Positions 24,489 to 33,365 of a stretch of 35,694 bases of DNA are shown here, one piece after another; the first letter of the stretch is position 1; each line of letters starts with the position of its first letter. The translations under genes and the position numbers were made by a program. The stretch comes from Chitinivibrionales bacterium (GTDB taxonomy: Bacteria > Fibrobacterota > Chitinivibrionia > Chitinivibrionales > WJMI01): assembly GCA_014728015.1 (NCBI GenBank), contig WJMI01000287.1:1-35694 (forward strand), read 5' to 3'. Below the pieces are notes generated by a model. It had not been told where the DNA came from. It saw only the letters and a program-made list of their open reading frames with translations, and searched no databases.

Positions 24489-25317
24489 GAATGCAATATC
24501 TGGTTGCCGGCAAGTTCGATCAGGAATGCGCTCTCAGCCAATTCTCGCGGCGCTGAGTATCCTGATAGGACTCGCAGGGAACGCACAGACGCTTTCCGTA
24601 GATCTGGTGACTACCGGCGCTGGTTCCTGGATCTACATCGCAAAGGATGCCGGCTCCGAAGTGCTGTATTTCAATAAGGTTCCTGTTAATGCGTATGTCA
24701 GCTTCATGGGTTTCAAGGCGTTCGCGGGTATCCCGCTTCTGTGGAGCGTGCGTACCAAAGGCGGCGCTTATGACAACGGCCTGGTGCGGCTCGCTGATAT
24801 CAACCTGTATGTCGGCAGGCCCGTGGGGCCGCTGGAACCGCGCCTGGGCGTGAAAGTGCCCACCGGATACCGCACCGACCGGGTATGGATTGGTTCGCGA
24901 AACGTCAAACTGCAGGCTGGTTTGGGGCTGAACTCGGAAGTGCGCGAGGTTGGCAGGCTCAATGCGGCCGGGGAAGTCATGTTCGATCTGTACCTGCCCG
25001 GCCCAAACGCCCTGGCCATGTGGAAGAGCTGGGAGCTCCTCCCGTCATTCAAGATCAGCTTCAGACCCGTGGAAAGAACCAGAATCGGCCTTGAGCTGCT
25101 TGCATCGGTGAAAAGCGTCTATTGGGCACAAGACTGGCGCGAAACCACCCTGGGAACGGTCCCGAATCTCTACGGAGAGTTCGCCCTTTCCGACAGGGTC
25201 TACCTGAATCTGAAAGCAGGCGCCGGGCCGACACTCAAGAAATCCCCCGATGATGCCCGCCTGCGGCACCGCGGCAACTCAGTCAACCTTGGTATCGCGC
25301 TTAATATTTATCCATGA
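24481..25317 (+). CDS. Putative outer-membrane beta-barrel protein
   Basis: A 278-residue protein with a signal peptide (hydrophobic core LAALSILIGLA, cleavage after about residue 36, GNAQT). The mature part is rich in alternating, aromatic-terminated strands, for example GSWIYIAKDAGSEVLYFNKV, DINLYVGRPVG and GVKVPTGYRTDRVW. It ends in NLGIALNIYP, close to the hydrophobic C-terminal strand of outer-membrane proteins. GVKVPTGYRTDR resembles strands seen in 'transporter'-type barrels. The start at 24481 overlaps folK; a start at 24526 is possible. No specific family is recognised. Confidence 0.65.
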   Translation: MNENAISGCRQVRSGMRSQPILAALSILIGLAGNAQTLSVDLVTTGAGSWIYIAKDAGSEVLYFNKVPVNAYVSFMGFKAFAGIPLLWSVRTKGGAYDNGLVRLADINLYVGRPVGPLEPRLGVKVPTGYRTDRVWIGSRNVKLQAGLGLNSEVREVGRLNAAGEVMFDLYLPGPNALAMWKSWELLPSFKISFRPVERTRIGLELLASVKSVYWAQDWRETTLGTVPNLYGEFALSDRVYLNLKAGAGPTLKKSPDDARLRHRGNSVNLGIALNIYP

Positions 25318-26510
25318 ATAGACTCGCCGGCTTACTCGTTCTCATCTTCACAGCCGCGGCATCAGCCCCAGCCCAACCCCGGGGCGAATCCCTGCTCTAC
25401 CTATCGTTTCTCGAGGGGCTTGGGAGCGGTACAATGGTTGAGGGCGCTTGCGAACGAGATGAGCTCGGAACCCGCCTGCTGTCAAACTCCCGCGCGCGGT
25501 TCGAAATCCCTGCCAGGCGGGCGATCTCAAATGCCACGCTTCACATCGACTTCTATCCACCGCGCATCGACCGCTCGGGGATGCTGATGCGGCCGGGCGG
25601 CCGCGGCTGCGCCTGCGCTTTCACCATTATCACGGGCCGGCTCGTGGTAGAGCTTTCAGATCGTTGGGTGCGTGCATCCGCTCTCGATACGGAATATCTC
25701 GAGACAGATACTACGTACGCTCATATCGACACTCGCATGATCCCTGATGGCGAGGAACGGCGTTTGGAGCTCCACGTTGTAGACAGCAAGGCGCGACTCG
25801 TGGTCAACGGCATGGAAATCCTGTCGACTCCTGTGCATCATCACGATTTCCGCAGCATCATGCTTGACACATACAATCACCCCTTTGTCCTGGCGGCCCT
25901 CGCGCTCTATTCGCTCGAACCCGATTCCCTTGTTGTCAGCAGCGACAGCGGGTACGTTGATGCGCGCGCCGAGTATTTCCCGTCACGCTTCTCCGCCAAC
26001 AAAGGTATTGCCAATCACCACTTCGCGGCCTGGGAAGACGGATTGGCCGCGCCGCACGCTTTGTTCACCACGTTCGCTTCGGACAGCCAGATTCACGCGG
26101 CGCTCTACGAAGCCGGCGCCCGGCCGGGCAACAACCTTATGTACGAAACATGGTCTCGACGGGACGACAGCCTGTCCCGCGCTCCGGACCGCCGTACCAA
26201 CGGCGACCCGGTAGAAATACAAATTCGTTTCGGGAGATCGGTCTACACGGTCGACGATGTGCTTCGGGACAATCGCGGCAAGCAGTTCGAGTTCCGGTTT
26301 TCAGGCAATCTGCGGCACAGAGCCAAGTGGCGCACCGGCGGCGTGGTATGCCTGCAAAGTTGTCCGGGAGGAACAATCGGCAACCGCGCGTATACCATGC
26401 GCGATCTAGCCAAGGGCGCGTGTGGATTTGCGCCGATATCCGGACTCCCCTTTCAAGAAGGAGAAAAAGTCACTCTTCGGTTCAAACTCACAGAAAGAAG
26501 GTGGCCATGA
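25314..26510 (+). CDS. Exported two-part protein with YdjY-like domain
   Basis: A 398-residue protein with a signal peptide (cleavage near residue 20, SAPAQP). The first half (about 30-205) looks like a concanavalin/LamG-type jelly roll (TLHIDFYPPRIDRSGMLM, LELHVVDSKARLVVNGMEIL). The second half (about 215-395) matches YdjY-like domains: HHFAAWEDGLAAPHALFTTF, then IHAALYEAGARPGNN. YdjY-type proteins often occur with ferredoxins and membrane Fe-S proteins, as here further downstream. The start overlaps the barrel gene stop by four bases (ATGA) and the stop overlaps the DUF547 start likewise. Confidence 0.65.
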   Translation: MNRLAGLLVLIFTAAASAPAQPRGESLLYLSFLEGLGSGTMVEGACERDELGTRLLSNSRARFEIPARRAISNATLHIDFYPPRIDRSGMLMRPGGRGCACAFTIITGRLVVELSDRWVRASALDTEYLETDTTYAHIDTRMIPDGEERRLELHVVDSKARLVVNGMEILSTPVHHHDFRSIMLDTYNHPFVLAALALYSLEPDSLVVSSDSGYVDARAEYFPSRFSANKGIANHHFAAWEDGLAAPHALFTTFASDSQIHAALYEAGARPGNNLMYETWSRRDDSLSRAPDRRTNGDPVEIQIRFGRSVYTVDDVLRDNRGKQFEFRFSGNLRHRAKWRTGGVVCLQSCPGGTIGNRAYTMRDLAKGACGFAPISGLPFQEGEKVTLRFKLTERRWP

Positions 26511-27217
26511 AACGCGCGCTTTTGTTTCTTATCGTGTGCATCGCATCGGCCCGGGCATTCGACCCCGCATATCCCATGTATAGCGAGATTCTTTCTGAAT
26601 ACGTTTGCGATGCGGGAGTCGATTACGCCGCGCTGGTCCAGGATGCGGCGCTGGATCCCGTCCAGAAGGAGTTTACATCGCTTACCAGGCAGATGTATGA
26701 AACGCTTGGCCGCGAGGATCGAATAGCGTTCTTCGCAAACCTGTACAACTTCTATACGCTGAAACTGATTGCCGGCCACTATCCCGTCAAATCAATCAAG
26801 GAAATCGACAAACCATGGGCGCGAGAGATCGTACCGCTGTTCGGCGACTCTGTTTCTCTCGACCACGTGGAACATCAGATCATGCGCAAGCAGTTCGACA
26901 AGCCCCGAATTCATTTCGCGCTCAATTGCGCATCGCTGGGCTGCCCGGCGCTTCGGGACGAACCATATGTCGGCAACCGGCTCGATGCACAGCTCGAAAG
27001 CGCGGCAAAGGCATTCCTCACCGATACGGCCAGAAATCGCATCGAGGGCAATACACTCGTGCTCTCGAAGATACTCAAGTGGTACGGCGGCGACTTCAAG
27101 AAGAAATACGGCGGCTATGAGGAGTACGTCAAGAAAGTGCTCGGCATCACGGGCAAAGTCAAAGTGCGTTTTCTCGACTATGACTGGGACCTTAACGACG
27201 CAGACTCTTGTGACTAG
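26507..27217 (+). CDS. DUF547-family exported protein
   Basis: A 236-residue protein with a signal peptide (MKRALLFLIVCIASARA, cleavage at 17). The DUF547 domain covers about 60-185, with AFFANLYNFYTLKLI and IHFALNCASLGCPALRDEPY as the typical conserved blocks; the NCAS-LGCP motif is the family signature. The function is unknown; the fold has been compared to transglutaminase-like proteases, with the conserved Cys a possible nucleophile. The ATG at 26507 overlaps the preceding stop. A reading that starts at 26150 lies mostly inside the upstream gene and was rejected. Confidence 0.85.
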   Translation: MKRALLFLIVCIASARAFDPAYPMYSEILSEYVCDAGVDYAALVQDAALDPVQKEFTSLTRQMYETLGREDRIAFFANLYNFYTLKLIAGHYPVKSIKEIDKPWAREIVPLFGDSVSLDHVEHQIMRKQFDKPRIHFALNCASLGCPALRDEPYVGNRLDAQLESAAKAFLTDTARNRIEGNTLVLSKILKWYGGDFKKKYGGYEEYVKKVLGITGKVKVRFLDYDWDLNDADSCD

Positions 27218-27243: not shown

Positions 27244-29214
27244 CTGCGTAATTCCGCCCGCACAGCCCTATGTATCGCCCTCCCGGCCCTCTACCTCGGC
27301 TGTGCCTTCTGGATAGGGTCACGCGGCGAGCGCATTGTCGGCGATTTCCGCCTGCTGGCCGCGTATGCGCTGATGTTCGCCGGCATGCTCGCCCTGTGGC
27401 GCATGTGCCGCGGGACAAAAGCCGTGCTTGCCGTGGTCATTCTGGGCATAGTCGCGCGCATCGCTTTCTTGAATTTTCCGCATAGCGATGACGTTCACCG
27501 GTATATCTGGGAAGGCAGGATTCAGAATCTGGGGCATAATCCCTTCGCTCTCGCCCCGGATGCGCAAAAGCTGGAAACGGCACGCGACGACAATTGGGAG
27601 GGAATAAATCACAAACATGTTTCGACCAGCTACTGGCCCTTTTCTCAAATGCTGTTTCGGGCTGTCGTTTCAGCAGCACCCTCTCCCCTTGCATTCAAAA
27701 TCTTGTTCACACTGTTCGATCTCGGCATCATGCTTCTGCTTTTCGCTCTCATGCGAAGGCTGAATACCCCGCCGCATCATCTACTCCTGTATGCATTGAA
27801 TCCCCTTGTACTCGTCTATACCGCCGGGGAAGGTCATCTCGAGATAGTCGTTGCCTTCTGGCTCATGCTCTCGATGCTGGCGTATGCCAAAAGACGCTAC
27901 GCGCTCATGTACGTGAGCCTGGGGCTGGCCGTCATGACCAAGGTTCCTGCTGCGATCGTAGTCCCGTTTCTGGTAAGACGGAACAATTTGCGCCTTGCCC
28001 CGCTGTTTGGCATACCATTCCTTCTTTCTGTTCCCTATCTCACCGATGGTGTGTCATTCCTTCACGTGCCCGCCATGTTCGCCCGCGAATATCACTACAA
28101 CGGTCTCGCAGATTTTCTTCTCAGACCGATTCTCGGCGGATCAAATGTGCTCCCCGTCCTTGCCTGTCTACTGCTCATCACACTCGCCACAATCTTTCTT
28201 CTCACCACCGACAGGATACGGGCCTCCATGTATGCGCTTGGAGCCTTTCTCGTGTTCAGCACGACCGTGCATCCATGGTATCTGCTCACCATAACGCCTT
28301 TTCTTGTTCTTTACCGTTCCGGTCCGTGGCTCGCGCTGCACATCACATCAGTCGCGCTCATCTTCGTTTTTAACCCATGGGCCCGGGATCCATTTTGGCA
28401 CGCCACGAATCTGCTTATCACCTTTGAATATGTGCCTTTTGTCATCATGGGTCTCCGGGCCATGGTGACCGGGAATCGCCACGGACCGGGACATTACGGA
28501 TCCCCGCAGGATGTTTCCGTGGTAGTCCCCGCGCGCAACGAGCAGGATCACATCCGCATGTGCCTTGATTCGATACGCAACCAGGAGGGCGTGCGCGAGA
28601 TACTGGTTGTCGATGGCGGTTCTGATGATCGCACGCGCGAAATAGCCGAAGGCGCCGCGGGCACACGCGTGATTGATTCGCCGTCGGGACGCGGCGTGCA
28701 AATCCGTCGGGGAGCGCGGGAGGCTGGCGGAGACGTGGTGCTCGTCCTGCACGCGGATTCGCGGCTTCAGCCGGATGCTGTTCCCCGGGTGATCGATATT
28801 CTGAGACGGCGCCCCGATGTCGTGGGCGGCTCATTCAGCGCCCGGTATGACAGCAGCCAAACCCGTTTCCGCTTCACGGAGTTTTTGAACAACCTGCGGG
28901 CGCGCGTGTTTGGCATATCGTTCGGAGACCAGGGACAGTTCTTCAGGCGGAAGTCGATCGCAGACAGGATACCGCCGCTGCGGCTTATGGAAGATATTGA
29001 GCTGTCCTTGCTCATAAAAGAATTCGGCGCTGCGGGATTTGTGCGCGGCGGGGTCGTCAGCTCGACACGCGGGTGGGAACGCGCGGGCTACGCCAGGAAC
29101 TTCCTGAAGGTGATTTCGCTTACAACGCTCTATATCGTTCGCCGGGCGTTCGGCCTTTGCAGTAAGGACTGCGCCGATTTTGAAAGAATGTATTATGGAA
29201 AGGCCAGGGCATGA
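27244..29214 (+). CDS. GT-C membrane glycosyltransferase fused to GT2 (TIGR04283-like) domain
   Basis: A single frame of 656 residues if the CTG at 27244 is used. Residues 1-415 hold about ten membrane helices with a GT-C acidic loop, SDDVHRYIWEGRIQNLGHNPF spread over the first periplasmic loop, as in polyprenol-linked mannosyltransferase-like enzymes. Residues about 422-650 are a cytosolic GT2 domain: VSVVVPARNEQDHIRMCLDS, VLVLHADSRL (DxD-like) and LMEDIELSLLIKEFG, best matching TIGR04283. The first ATG (27373) would cut off the first helix (RTALCIALPALYLGCAFW). GGAGGA lies three bases before the CTG, so a rare CTG or ATT start is likely. The stop overlaps the next gene. Confidence 0.78.
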   Translation: MRNSARTALCIALPALYLGCAFWIGSRGERIVGDFRLLAAYALMFAGMLALWRMCRGTKAVLAVVILGIVARIAFLNFPHSDDVHRYIWEGRIQNLGHNPFALAPDAQKLETARDDNWEGINHKHVSTSYWPFSQMLFRAVVSAAPSPLAFKILFTLFDLGIMLLLFALMRRLNTPPHHLLLYALNPLVLVYTAGEGHLEIVVAFWLMLSMLAYAKRRYALMYVSLGLAVMTKVPAAIVVPFLVRRNNLRLAPLFGIPFLLSVPYLTDGVSFLHVPAMFAREYHYNGLADFLLRPILGGSNVLPVLACLLLITLATIFLLTTDRIRASMYALGAFLVFSTTVHPWYLLTITPFLVLYRSGPWLALHITSVALIFVFNPWARDPFWHATNLLITFEYVPFVIMGLRAMVTGNRHGPGHYGSPQDVSVVVPARNEQDHIRMCLDSIRNQEGVREILVVDGGSDDRTREIAEGAAGTRVIDSPSGRGVQIRRGAREAGGDVVLVLHADSRLQPDAVPRVIDILRRRPDVVGGSFSARYDSSQTRFRFTEFLNNLRARVFGISFGDQGQFFRRKSIADRIPPLRLMEDIELSLLIKEFGAAGFVRGGVVSSTRGWERAGYARNFLKVISLTTLYIVRRAFGLCSKDCADFERMYYGKARA

Positions 29215-29837
29215 ACGGTATAGCATCGGCAGCAGTGGTGTTCGCAAAGGTCCCCGGCCTGGGTATTGCGAAATCGCGCATTGCCGCGACCCACGGGCAG
29301 GAGACCGCGGAGCAGGTATATGCGGAACTGCTCGGCGCCACGGCCCGCATCGTGTCACCCCTTCCCCACCATGTCGCGTTTACCGGCGCCGATGCGCCGG
29401 GACCTCTGAAAGACATATTCGGGACAGCCTCATCCTTTTTTCAGCAATGCGATGGTGATCTGGGAAAGCGAATTCAGCACGCGTTCCAGCATCTTTTCGG
29501 CCAGGGTTACCGTGAGGTATGCGCGCTGGGATGCGATTGTCCTTCAACGCAATCATCCGATATTACCGCTGCTCTCGCTGAGGTGCGGTCAGGCACCGAT
29601 GTTGTTCTTGGCCCTGCAAGTGACGGCGGCTATTACCTGATCGCCCTGACGCGCGGCAAGGACTATGTATTTTCGGTATCGGGGTGGGGAACATCGAAGC
29701 TGCTCGGCGAAACCGTGGCGGCGATTCGGCGTCATGGTGATTCGTACAAGCTGCTTCGTGAACTCACCGACATCGATATGATGGCCGACTATCAGGCATG
29801 GAAATGCCATTCGCCGGAAAAAGGAGCTGACACATGA
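29211..29837 (+). CDS. DUF2064 / TIGR04282-type GT-A glycosyltransferase
   Basis: A 208-residue protein with a nucleotide-sugar-transferase-like GT-A fold. Typical blocks are AAVVFAKVPGLGIAKSRIAA (residues 7-26), VCALGCDCPSTQ (the usual 'GsDcP' segment, about 104-115) and VVLGPASDGGYYLIAL (130-145). TIGR04282 proteins are annotated by association with the TIGR04283 GT2 proteins in arsenosugar-type clusters; both types are adjacent here. No ArsM or ArsS gene is in this window, so an arsenic link is not supported. The start overlaps the fused transferase by four bases. Confidence 0.85.
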   Translation: MNGIASAAVVFAKVPGLGIAKSRIAATHGQETAEQVYAELLGATARIVSPLPHHVAFTGADAPGPLKDIFGTASSFFQQCDGDLGKRIQHAFQHLFGQGYREVCALGCDCPSTQSSDITAALAEVRSGTDVVLGPASDGGYYLIALTRGKDYVFSVSGWGTSKLLGETVAAIRRHGDSYKLLRELTDIDMMADYQAWKCHSPEKGADT

Positions 29838-30355
29838 AGATAGCAGTCATTGTTTTCCTCGCGCTGGTTCTTGCATCGTGCACGGGAACGAGGCCGTCGC
29901 ATATCGGCGACGGCGCACTGGCGCCTTGCCCCGGGACTCCGAACTGCGTGTCCACGAAAGCACCCGCCGACGACAGCGCTCATGCTATCGCGCCGTTAGT
30001 TTATTCGGGCTCGATGGAAGATGCCATGGCGACACTGAAAGCAGCGGTCGATTCCATGCCGCGGACCGAGCTTGTCGCGGAAACCAAAGACTATCTCTAT
30101 GTGGAATTCACCTCCGCAGTGTGGCGTTTTGTTGACGATGTTGAATTTATTTTCGACGATGAGAAAAAGGTCATTCATTTCAGGTCGGCATCACGCCTGG
30201 GGAAAAGCGATTTGGGAGTCAACCGGGCCCGGATGGAGGAAGTGCGGGCGTTATTCGAAGAAGCATCGGGTGGTGCCGCGAGCGGGAACAACACCCAAAA
30301 CAGCGAGGAACCGCCAGAACCCGGGGAAGCCCCGGCCGACACTTCCGCCAGGTAA
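29834..30355 (+). CDS. DUF1499 lipoprotein
   Basis: A 173-residue protein with a lipoprotein signal (MKIAVIVFLALVLASC, lipidated Cys16). The DUF1499 domain covers about 28-138: LAPCPGTPNCVSTKA, EFTSAVWRFVDDVEF and FRSASRLGKSDLGVNRARME are the family hallmarks. The tail (140-173) is a Pro/Glu/Ser-rich disordered stretch. Function unknown; the family often sits in membrane-stress or glycan-related clusters. ATGA overlap with the preceding gene; two bases separate it from the next. Confidence 0.88.
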   Translation: MKIAVIVFLALVLASCTGTRPSHIGDGALAPCPGTPNCVSTKAPADDSAHAIAPLVYSGSMEDAMATLKAAVDSMPRTELVAETKDYLYVEFTSAVWRFVDDVEFIFDDEKKVIHFRSASRLGKSDLGVNRARMEEVRALFEEASGGAASGNNTQNSEEPPEPGEAPADTSAR

Positions 30356-30357
30356 CC

Positions 30358-32826
30358 TTGAGTGATATTCAGCCTATGAAATTTCCTGCTCTCTACTTCA
30401 ACTGGCTCCAGAAAGATAATCCCACCGGCACGGTGGATATGCTTCCCGAGATCCGTGACGGGTTTGAGACATCGGTGCCGGGCATCTACTGCACCGGCGA
30501 CCTCACAGGCATACCGCTTATCAAGCTCGCGGCGGAATCGGGATACGACCTGATCGAGAAGCTCCATGCGGACAGCTCGTTCCGTCGTGCGCGCGAGGGA
30601 AACACCGATAGCGAGATGCTCGACCTGGTAATCTGCGGCGCGGGACCATCGGGCATGGCCGCCTGCATGCGCGCGCAGGAGCTCGGGTATACGGGAGTGG
30701 TACTCGAGTCATCGCAGAAATTCAATACGATCGTCAATTTCCCCGCCGGTAAGCCCATTTATGTGACGCCGGTCGATCCCCCCATGAAATCCGCCCTGGA
30801 TTTCAGCGACGGAACCAAGGAAACGCTTCTTGCAGAGCTCCACGAAGACATCAAGGGCAAGGACCTCCCGGTCCATGAAGGCGAAATGGTCCAACAGGTC
30901 ATTCGGGAGCAAAAGGGGTTCACGGTCAAGACAACAAAGGGCAGCTACCGGGCGCTTCGCGTAATCGTCGCAATCGGCAAAACCGGCAATGCCCGCATGC
31001 TCGATGTCCCGGGGGAAAAGCTTCCCAAGGTATTTACCAGACTTATCGATCCTGGCGAGTACCAGGATGCCGATGTTCTGGTGGTGGGCGGCGGCGACAG
31101 CGCACTCGAGGCTGCCGTGGCGCTGGCCCGGGAGGGAAACCGGGTAACGCTTTCCTACCGCAAAGCATCCTTTTCGCGTCCGAAAGAGCACAATGTAGCG
31201 GCGTTCGACACATTGGCCCGCCAAGGGAAAATCACGGCGATATTCGAAAGCACGGTCAAAGAAATCCGGGAAGACGATGTAGTGCTCAACACGAGCGAGG
31301 GTGAAAAGACGTTGCCGAACCAGGCCGTGTTCGCGCTCATCGGGACCGAAATACCCATACGGTTCTTCAGAAGATCCAATATCCGCATGGAAGGCGACCG
31401 GGATCATGCGTATTATATGAAATTTTCCGGCCTGCTTCTGTTTGCATCGGTACTCTATTTCGGCAAGAAAGCGCCAGATACGCCGGTATCGGGTTTCATG
31501 GATTTCTTCGGTCTTCCCGCAGTGTTCCTCGCGAAAACCTGGCCCAGGATGCTGAACGGTATGATCGCCTGGACGAGCTTCATGGCTTTGCTCCTGTGCC
31601 TTGGATACCTTGCCGTACACTTCGCGAAAAATGCATCACGCTATTTCAACCGGCCATGGAACTCCTTTAAATACTCCTATTATGCGGCCACGGCAGTGCT
31701 ATTTGCCTATCTTTACGTGGCCTACAAGCTGGCAGGCCAGCGCCCGGTATTCGGGGACATGGGCGGATGGTATACGCTCATGTATTCGCTGACAATCGTC
31801 GTATTCGGATTCCGGCGCGTTTTCCTCAAGCCGACAGGCTATATCACGCGCCAGACCTATGTGCTCATGGCGTTCCAGGTAGTACCGCTCTTCATCCTGC
31901 CGATGTTCATCTTCCCGTGGATGGGCACGACCGGGCTCTTCAACGACTGGATCATGCAGAACGTCTTTCCGGGCGAATCGTACTGGCGCGCATACGGGCT
32001 GATTCTCGCCTGGCCCTTGTTTATCCACAACCTTGCTATGGGAGAGCCAACGTTGTTCTGGCTGGTTGCCGGCATTGGCCAGACGTTTCTGATTATCCCC
32101 TGGCTCAATTACGTGTGGGGAAAAGGCGCCTACTGCGGCTGGATTTGTTCGTGCGGAGCGCTCGCCGAGACGCTGGGCGACGAGTATCGCACCACGGCAT
32201 TCCACGGGTCCGCGGCCAAGAAGGCGGATAACGCCGGGCAGGTCGTTCTCTGGGGAGCCGGCTTTGTGACGCTGCTTGCCTGGCTGGCCGGCTCGGGCGG
32301 AAGCCCTGCCTCTGATGTGGCGGGGCACGTGTACAACGTCGTGGTCGATATCTTCTTTGCAGGGGTTCTGGGTCTCGGTGTGTATTTCTTCTGGTCCGGC
32401 CGCGTGTGGTGCCGTTTTCTCTGCCCGCTTGCCGCGCTTATGCATATCTATACAAGGTTCTCGAAGTACCGCATCATGTCCAACAAGAAACGATGTATTT
32501 CCTGCAATATATGTACGAAGGTATGCCATATGGGTATCGATGTCATGTCGTACGCAAACAAGGGCATACCCATGAACGATGTCGAATGCGTGCGATGCAG
32601 CGCGTGCGTGGTAAACTGCCCGCTTCAGGTATTAACATTCGGAGATGTGGGCGGGGTGGACCTGGACAACTCCAAATATAAAGAGAAGTACTTCCCGCTC
32701 AAGCGCGGCTGGGAGGCCGGACTTCCGAAAGAGGATATCGAGATGCTTCTACGGGAAGAATCCGAAAAGCATCCGGAAGTTATTTCGAGTCGCGGGACAG
32801 GGGCTCGGAAGGCGGTTGCCGAATGA
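30358..32826 (+). CDS. Flavin oxidoreductase / membrane polyferredoxin fusion
   Basis: An 822-residue inner-membrane protein. Residues 8-70 carry a FAD-protein tail motif (PGIYCTGDLTGIPLIKLAAE). Residues 88-345 form a thioredoxin-reductase-like domain with FAD motif GAGPSG (94-99) and NAD(P) motif GGGDSA (244-249) but no CxxC. About nine membrane helices follow (355-700) with NapH/NosR-like Cys motifs CGWICSCGA (near 593) and WCRFLCPLAAL (near 685). Two [4Fe-4S] motifs are C713/716/719/723 and C744/747/750/754. It likely moves electrons between NAD(P)H and quinone or a periplasmic partner. It starts at TTG 30358; an ATG at 30376 is the alternative. Confidence 0.82.
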   Translation: MSDIQPMKFPALYFNWLQKDNPTGTVDMLPEIRDGFETSVPGIYCTGDLTGIPLIKLAAESGYDLIEKLHADSSFRRAREGNTDSEMLDLVICGAGPSGMAACMRAQELGYTGVVLESSQKFNTIVNFPAGKPIYVTPVDPPMKSALDFSDGTKETLLAELHEDIKGKDLPVHEGEMVQQVIREQKGFTVKTTKGSYRALRVIVAIGKTGNARMLDVPGEKLPKVFTRLIDPGEYQDADVLVVGGGDSALEAAVALAREGNRVTLSYRKASFSRPKEHNVAAFDTLARQGKITAIFESTVKEIREDDVVLNTSEGEKTLPNQAVFALIGTEIPIRFFRRSNIRMEGDRDHAYYMKFSGLLLFASVLYFGKKAPDTPVSGFMDFFGLPAVFLAKTWPRMLNGMIAWTSFMALLLCLGYLAVHFAKNASRYFNRPWNSFKYSYYAATAVLFAYLYVAYKLAGQRPVFGDMGGWYTLMYSLTIVVFGFRRVFLKPTGYITRQTYVLMAFQVVPLFILPMFIFPWMGTTGLFNDWIMQNVFPGESYWRAYGLILAWPLFIHNLAMGEPTLFWLVAGIGQTFLIIPWLNYVWGKGAYCGWICSCGALAETLGDEYRTTAFHGSAAKKADNAGQVVLWGAGFVTLLAWLAGSGGSPASDVAGHVYNVVVDIFFAGVLGLGVYFFWSGRVWCRFLCPLAALMHIYTRFSKYRIMSNKKRCISCNICTKVCHMGIDVMSYANKGIPMNDVECVRCSACVVNCPLQVLTFGDVGGVDLDNSKYKEKYFPLKRGWEAGLPKEDIEMLLREESEKHPEVISSRGTGARKAVAE

Positions 32827-33365
32827 GTGCATTTACGCAGAGGTACCTCGTCCTGGCGCTTGTGTTTGCGCACGGGCTCGTTCCTGATGCGGGTGCCCGG
32901 AGTTCAAGCGCCTATGATAAGATGACCAGGCGGCGTCACGACAGGATGCTGGAGATGTACTATGAATACAAAGTGGAGGCATTTGCCGATGTAGCGGACA
33001 TAACCGTCGAGACCCTCCTGGAAGGTCCGGCGGAAATGGGGTACGTGCTTCTGGATGCGCGCGAAAAGGAGGAGCGCGAGGTATCCATGATTCCCGGCGC
33101 TATTTCTCGGCATGAATTCGAGTCGAACCGGCGCCGCTATAAAGACTCTACCGTGGTGGTCTACTGCACAATCGGATACAGAAGCGGCGTATATGCGAAG
33201 AAGCTCAAACGCAAGGGCTTCAGAGTCTACAATCTGGTCGGCGGCGTGCTCGCGTGGGCACATGCCGGCAGAGAGTTCGTGAACGACAGTATATCAACGC
33301 GCCGGGTGCACGTATATGGCAAGAAGTGGGACCTGGCGCCCATGGACTACGAAGCGACCTGGTAG
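32823..33365 (+). CDS. Exported rhodanese-domain protein
   Basis: A 180-residue protein with a signal peptide (cleavage near residue 26, GARS). The rhodanese domain spans about 60-155 with VLLDAREKEER (76-86) and the active-site loop VVYCTIGYRSG, nucleophile Cys115. Rhodaneses move sulfane sulfur to thiols or cyanide; outside the cytosol they may repair or load Fe-S or thiol partners. It overlaps the polyferredoxin fusion by four bases (ATGA), so both are made together, which suggests the fusion's electrons serve sulfur or thiol chemistry in the periplasm. It is the last gene of the long plus-strand operon. Confidence 0.85.
   Translation: MSAFTQRYLVLALVFAHGLVPDAGARSSSAYDKMTRRRHDRMLEMYYEYKVEAFADVADITVETLLEGPAEMGYVLLDAREKEEREVSMIPGAISRHEFESNRRRYKDSTVVVYCTIGYRSGVYAKKLKRKGFRVYNLVGGVLAWAHAGREFVNDSISTRRVHVYGKKWDLAPMDYEATW

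Follow-up and report, generated by a model that had tools for sequence, protein, structure and literature searches.

By sequence and by Foldseek, the nearest described flavin core to the one considered here is that of YpdA/Bdr (TIGR04018; PDB 7a7b, 7a76), a two-domain fold in canonical order that carries Cys14 (PMC6591457). The thioredoxin reductase (TrxR)-type FNRs (B. subtilis FNR, PDB 3lzw; C. tepidum FNR, 3ab1) have a TrxR fold without CxxC in which FAD feeds an Fe-S carrier, and they serve as a precedent for FAD-to-ferredoxin transfer (PMC11121358). These enzymes are soluble and unpermuted, and their ferredoxin is a separate protein. On the membrane side, NapH/NosR-type ferredoxins (TIGR02163, NF046105) have CxxxCP motifs adjoining their membrane helices, as well as a C-terminal pair of [4Fe-4S] motifs.

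The window, that is, the whole 35,694-nucleotide stretch of DNA that was analyzed, encodes an 822-residue protein that touches on all of these systems (Table 1). Pfam and NCBIfam profiles find a Pyr_redox_3/YpdA-like domain at residues 89–353 and a NapH-like Fe-S domain at residues 548–761. The latter match, together with conserved Fe-S cysteines, supports the original prediction of a NapH/NosR-like membrane polyferredoxin. The protein shares the two-domain fold of YpdA, but its flavin domain is permuted and the Cys14 site is taken by Ala, Ser, or Gly; its score against the YpdA NCBIfam model is 157 bits, far short of the 339.9 cut-off. Unlike in the TrxR-type FNRs, its Fe-S carrier is membrane-bound and forms one chain with the flavin domain. 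Compared with NapH/NosR-type proteins, it is extended at the front by four more helices and a flavin domain, and it scores far under the NapH and NosR cut-offs (52 bits against 213 for NapH, TIGR02163). It is likely that the 822-residue protein is an NAD(P)H-oxidizing FAD domain of the low-Mr thioredoxin reductase fold, nearest YpdA, fused to an eight-helix NapH/NosR-like polyferredoxin.

Table 1. Positions in the window of the gene for the 822-residue protein, its parts, and its neighbors
Feature	Positions	Strand	Basis or remark
DUF547 protein	26471..27217	+	recurrent neighbor; start codon uncertain
613-aa polytopic membrane part fused to TIGR04283-type glycosyltransferase	27373..29214	+	168 bits, under 182 cut-off
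TIGR04282 protein (DUF2064)	29211..29837	+	over cut-off
DUF1499 protein	29834..30355	+	ends 2 bases before the 822-aa gene
Whole gene, permuted flavin domain and NapH-like membrane polyferredoxin	30358..32826	+	822 aa
Conserved N-terminal helix YFNWLQKD, residues 13–20, outside canonical fold	30394..30417	+	conservation; helix 11–17 in model
Displaced C-terminal FAD-completing segment, residues 22–72; GD motif 47–48, strand 43–45, helix 52–71	30421..30573	+	profiles, covariation, models
FAD domain first half; GAGPSG, residues 94–99 (30637–30654)	30616..30990	+	
NAD(P)H domain; GGGDSA, residues 244–249 (31087–31104)	31066..31320	+	
Flavin core end VFALIGTEIP	31324..31356	+	canonical tail absent beyond
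Eight predicted membrane helices, residues 350–674	31405..32379	+	AF2 model, charge pattern
CGWICSC motif, residues 593–599	32134..32154	+	all three Cys invariant
WCRFLCP motif, residues 684–690	32407..32427	+	CxxxCP of NapH/NosR type
First [4Fe-4S] motif, C713 C716 C719 C723	32494..32526	+	
Second [4Fe-4S] motif, C744 C747 C750 C754	32587..32619	+	
Rhodanese-domain protein	32823..33365	+	overlaps stop codon of the 822-aa gene

Order of segments in the flavin domain

The FAD GxGxxG motif, the NAD(P) GxGxxG/A motif, and the T..PGIY..GD segment of the TrxR-like fold are all present, with the last of them displaced, such that the chain runs FAD(2)-FAD(1)-NAD rather than the canonical FAD(1)-NAD-FAD(2). 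The motif residues given in the original prediction are right (GAGPSG at 94–99, GGGDSA at 244–249, ALIGTEIP at 326–333, and ETSVPGIYCTGDLTGIP at 37–53). Beyond ALIGTEIP, helices follow from residue 350, and the Pfam and NCBIfam flavin profiles end early on this protein (288/305 and 270/316) because the C-terminal segment is missing there. Sequence comparison identifies residues 22–72 as the homolog of the C-terminal FAD-completing segment in YpdA and thioredoxin reductase-type flavoproteins. We put at roughly 95% the probability that the flavin domain is circularly permuted, with its C-terminal FAD-completing strand and helix now at the N terminus. The original prediction had proposed this arrangement, and it draws strong support from profile completion, a paste test, the mutual exclusivity of front and rear segments, covariation, and structural models.

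Taken alone against the PDB, the 55-residue front segment finds mostly flavin disulfide reductases, which it matches over the TSVPGIYAIGD stretch of their C-terminal part (best E 0.012), and a permuted copy of the domain fills the Pfam profiles to the last position with a gain of 10–13 bits. For the paste test, a canonical profile of length 323 was built from 24 unpermuted relatives. With the segment placed behind the core, this profile gives one match (4–316/323) of 258.9 bits, compared with 232.2 for the core, whereas the native order gives two matches, of 232.1 and 15.5 bits; the maximum for shuffled segments (n = 200) is 238.8. For the segments ahead of 87 permuted cores, the median score is 20 bits and every match lies at the profile tail; 435 shuffled front segments score no more than 2.5 bits. 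Rotating the whole 1–352 domain against the profile did not separate the cut points because the 1–21 insert interrupts the alignment and the summed score is blind to order, and the paste test was used instead. Among 172 distinct relatives, the segment lies only in front in 130, only behind in 38, and in both places in none; 4 are undecided, most of them having too little sequence on one side. A full C-terminal FAD segment after the core, named in the original prediction as the observation that would speak against it, was looked for, and none of the 130 permuted proteins has such a second copy.

The displaced segment retains its FAD-site residues, with Gly47 invariant, Asp48 present in 52 of 53 relatives, and Lys56 in 49 of 53. 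In a mean-field covariation analysis of the 130 permuted sequences (effective number 120), the top ten pairs include I66–Y111, V40–V217, T46–E160, and I66–L90, and the strongest couplings of the last strand are to residues 203 and 92, neighbors expected in the FAD sheet. The top 100 segment–core pairs include 19 from the set of expected contacts compared with 5.95 by expectation (p = 5.7e-6, which is optimistic because that set, based on general fold knowledge, was drawn up after a first look at the couplings). Mean pLDDT is 88 in the AlphaFold model of the full-length protein and 89 in that of residues 1–352. Strand 43–45 is retained in the 1–352 model without the membrane part; therefore, its strand partner most likely lies in the flavin domain. 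Covariation and the two models agree in predicting that the segment lies against the FAD domain. The Foldseek rmsd of the 352-residue model (~10 Å, versus ~4 Å for the full-length model) may reflect an altered orientation of the FAD and NAD domains, which would have no bearing on the permutation.

Covariation is blind to the difference between intrachain and interchain contacts, and relatives such as the TrxR-type FNRs are homodimers (PMC11121358), which leaves room for a domain swap in which each front segment fills out the FAD site in the partner subunit of a dimer. The single-chain models, however, put a confident strand and helix into the flavin domain, and the spacing from GD to GxGxxG is short and fairly constant (median 44 residues), and we consider a swap improbable. 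One could instead suppose that the motif arose by chance, or that a misassigned start puts unrelated residues before an ordinary tail-less domain, given the TTG start codon (Met7, ATG at 30376, is an alternative) and the 65 codons open upstream in the same frame, but this reading is refuted at the sequence level and scarcely credible, as the segment is kept in 130 proteins, excludes the C-terminal copy found in 38, and far outscores its shuffles.

Spread of the permutation

A scan of genome contigs yielded 70 loci, and 53 long relatives align at 30–69% identity. The original prediction had asked if the N-terminal segment always accompanies the fusion. It does: the front block (consensus YFxWLQKDxPxGxVExYPEIxxxGETSVxGxYIxGDLTGIPLLKLAAESG) is found in all 53, in diverged form in L066. 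These relatives come from Fibrobacterota, Ignavibacteriota, Planctomycetota, Lentisphaerota, Acidobacteriota, Myxococcota, Spirochaetota, and candidate phyla, among others. Overall, at least 130 related proteins, spread over many bacterial phyla, show the rearrangement.

The proposed purpose of the permutation, to let the C-terminal end of the flavin domain enter the membrane, is not borne out by these relatives. About 35 permuted proteins stop within ~40 residues of the core and carry a ferredoxin or multiheme cytochrome in front. Because permuted forms with a free C terminus exist, freeing that terminus for the membrane does not explain the permutation. A common form of ~445 residues (L103:973-2307, L121, L165-L177) consists of a short hydrophobic N terminus, a 2×[4Fe-4S] ferredoxin, and the permuted flavin domain, with the C terminus free. 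In acidobacterial proteins of ~1,100–1,190 residues (L106:1-2352, L111, L114, L138), a multiheme cytochrome c (eight CxxCH motifs in the part read), a 2×[4Fe-4S] ferredoxin, and the permuted flavin domain form one chain, again with the flavin C terminus free. These ferredoxin-flavin and multiheme cytochrome-ferredoxin-flavin forms rule out a strict tie between permutation and membrane fusion. A further type (L210:775-3264, also L213, L214, L220, and L222) has a ferredoxin, the permuted flavin domain, and a tail of ~305 residues. The L210 tail is membrane-like, with hydrophobic His-containing stretches, and looks cytochrome b-like by eye.

Three unpermuted relatives (L130-L132) were considered as candidate unpermuted membrane fusions and rejected. 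They have two cyclic nucleotide-binding domains and a C-terminal multi-[4Fe-4S] part but no NapH-like membrane part, and their segment sits in the ordinary place behind the core (38–44 bits). In a tree based on the core only, these proteins and the permuted ones form one supported clade (97/89) beside the YpdA-like proteins, and one long unpermuted branch, L112, falls inside this clade. A single permutation event is not rejected by the AU test (p-AU 0.353). At two loci (L064:4487-6846 and L057:6989-9399), the gene is split into two frames, for which a frameshift, an assembly error, and a genuine split are all conceivable; the L064 break falls at query residue 324/325, the border between flavin and membrane parts, with a short overlap between the frames.

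Our search of the open-access literature found no published permuted member of the TrxR-like fold. The fold and the NapH-like part are already known; what appears to be new is the segment order and its occurrence in several types of Fe-S fusion.

Probable electron path and gene neighborhood

CxxC is absent from the flavin domain in all 53 relatives, in agreement with the original view that this protein is not a thioredoxin reductase. With no CxxC and no equivalent of YpdA Cys14, no disulfide chemistry is expected in this domain. Arg268 is invariant and Arg274 nearly so, a pattern that we take to be that of NADPH-binding thioredoxin reductases; it suggests NADPH as substrate, and the electron donor is probably NADPH rather than NADH. 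The C-terminal half has the NapH/MauN architecture, with membrane helices, CxxxCP-type motifs, and two C-terminal [4Fe-4S] motifs, and its Fe-S cysteines are invariant bar one residue in one sequence. From the prediction of eight helices and the pattern of charges, the flavin domain is placed on one side of the membrane together with the CxxxC motifs and the ferredoxin domain, and this side is presumably the cytoplasmic one. No His is conserved within the membrane helices, making heme b unlikely.

Electron transfer from NAD(P)H through FAD to Fe-S centers would be the simplest path and is the one we think likely, given these motifs. FAD would be reduced by NAD(P)H on the cytoplasmic side. With no disulfide center present, electrons would move to the two [4Fe-4S] clusters and the CxxxCP centers at the membrane face and from there would reduce an acceptor in the membrane, either quinone or a lipid-linked substrate; TrxR-type FNRs feed ferredoxin in much the same way. 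Within its operon, the protein would supply a redox step for a DUF547/TIGR04282/TIGR04283 pathway, an assignment that we propose tentatively; elsewhere, genomes with this pathway have arsenosugar enzymes in it.

This assignment comes from the gene neighborhood. In the window, the genes from DUF547 to rhodanese lie on one strand and overlap or nearly touch from the glycosyltransferase onward. The DUF547 frame (26150-27217) remains open far upstream of the probable start codon, and a YdjY-domain gene (25314-26510) overlaps it. We took as markers arsenosugar-type genes or their usual neighbors (DUF547, TIGR04282/04283 glycosyltransferases, ArsS, and ArsM). At least one marker is found at 23 of 37 well-flanked loci (at least 3 kb on both sides; the window's own locus is included if its flanks pass), namely DUF547 at 17, TIGR04282/83-type glycosyltransferases at 13, ArsS at 7, and an ArsM-like protein at 3. 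In L018, the order runs permuted fusion protein, ArsM-like, TIGR04283/04282, DUF547-like, TIGR04169, and ArsS (TIGR04167; 427 bits against a cut-off of 300) (see review PMC12159101 for this gene context). The window has the DUF547/glycosyltransferase set and no ArsS, and its genome (94% complete) has no TIGR04167 match over the cut-off (best 30 bits against 300); thus, the product there may differ. A member from Pseudoalteromonas sp. Bsw20308 (WP_007378779.1; L223, NZ_CP013139.1 687482-707710) is encoded on a 906-kb plasmid, where a GT87-family protein lies on one side and further glycosyltransferases on the other; a DUF2064 protein is also there, and no ArsS or ArsM is annotated nearby.

It is conceivable, and we give the idea some weight, that the protein is instead a general respiratory or redox-balance enzyme whose neighbors are incidental. 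Markers are missing at 14 of the 37 well-flanked loci, and within the window's phylum the gene is patchily distributed, being present in 14 of 168 genomes. Against this idea, DUF547, TIGR04282/83, and ArsS recur adjacent to the gene across distant phyla and almost always share its strand, and a related glycosyltransferase context occurs on the Pseudoalteromonas plasmid. Electrons could also flow in reverse, with the membrane domain oxidizing menaquinol and the flavin domain reducing NAD(P)+ or a soluble partner, as NapH-type proteins are held to be parts of quinol dehydrogenases (by NCBIfam name and family knowledge). We regard reverse flow as quite unlikely because menaquinol is a weak donor for NADP+ without energy input, and no coupling subunit is seen nearby.

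Meaning of a permuted flavin module

A natural permutation in a flavoprotein with two dinucleotide-binding domains, with close unpermuted relatives extant, offers a clean case in which to test how far such enzymes tolerate rewiring. On the permuted proteins, standard profiles (Pyr_redox, YpdA) end short, and the annotated relatives that were found bear only the name 'NAD(P)-binding domain-containing protein'. The broadest proposal would be that NAD(P)H-driven Fe-S fusions (membrane polyferredoxin, ferredoxin, and multiheme cytochrome) make up a large superfamily, as yet unnamed, built around the permuted TrxR-fold module and, at the same time, that the membrane branch of this superfamily is an unrecognized enzyme of an arsenosugar/arsenolipid-like pathway that reduces a membrane-bound intermediate; this proposal is somewhat unlikely to hold as a whole. 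The repeated association with ArsS/ArsM, DUF547, and TIGR04282/04283 suggests that those pathways contain a membrane redox step for which no enzyme has been assigned.
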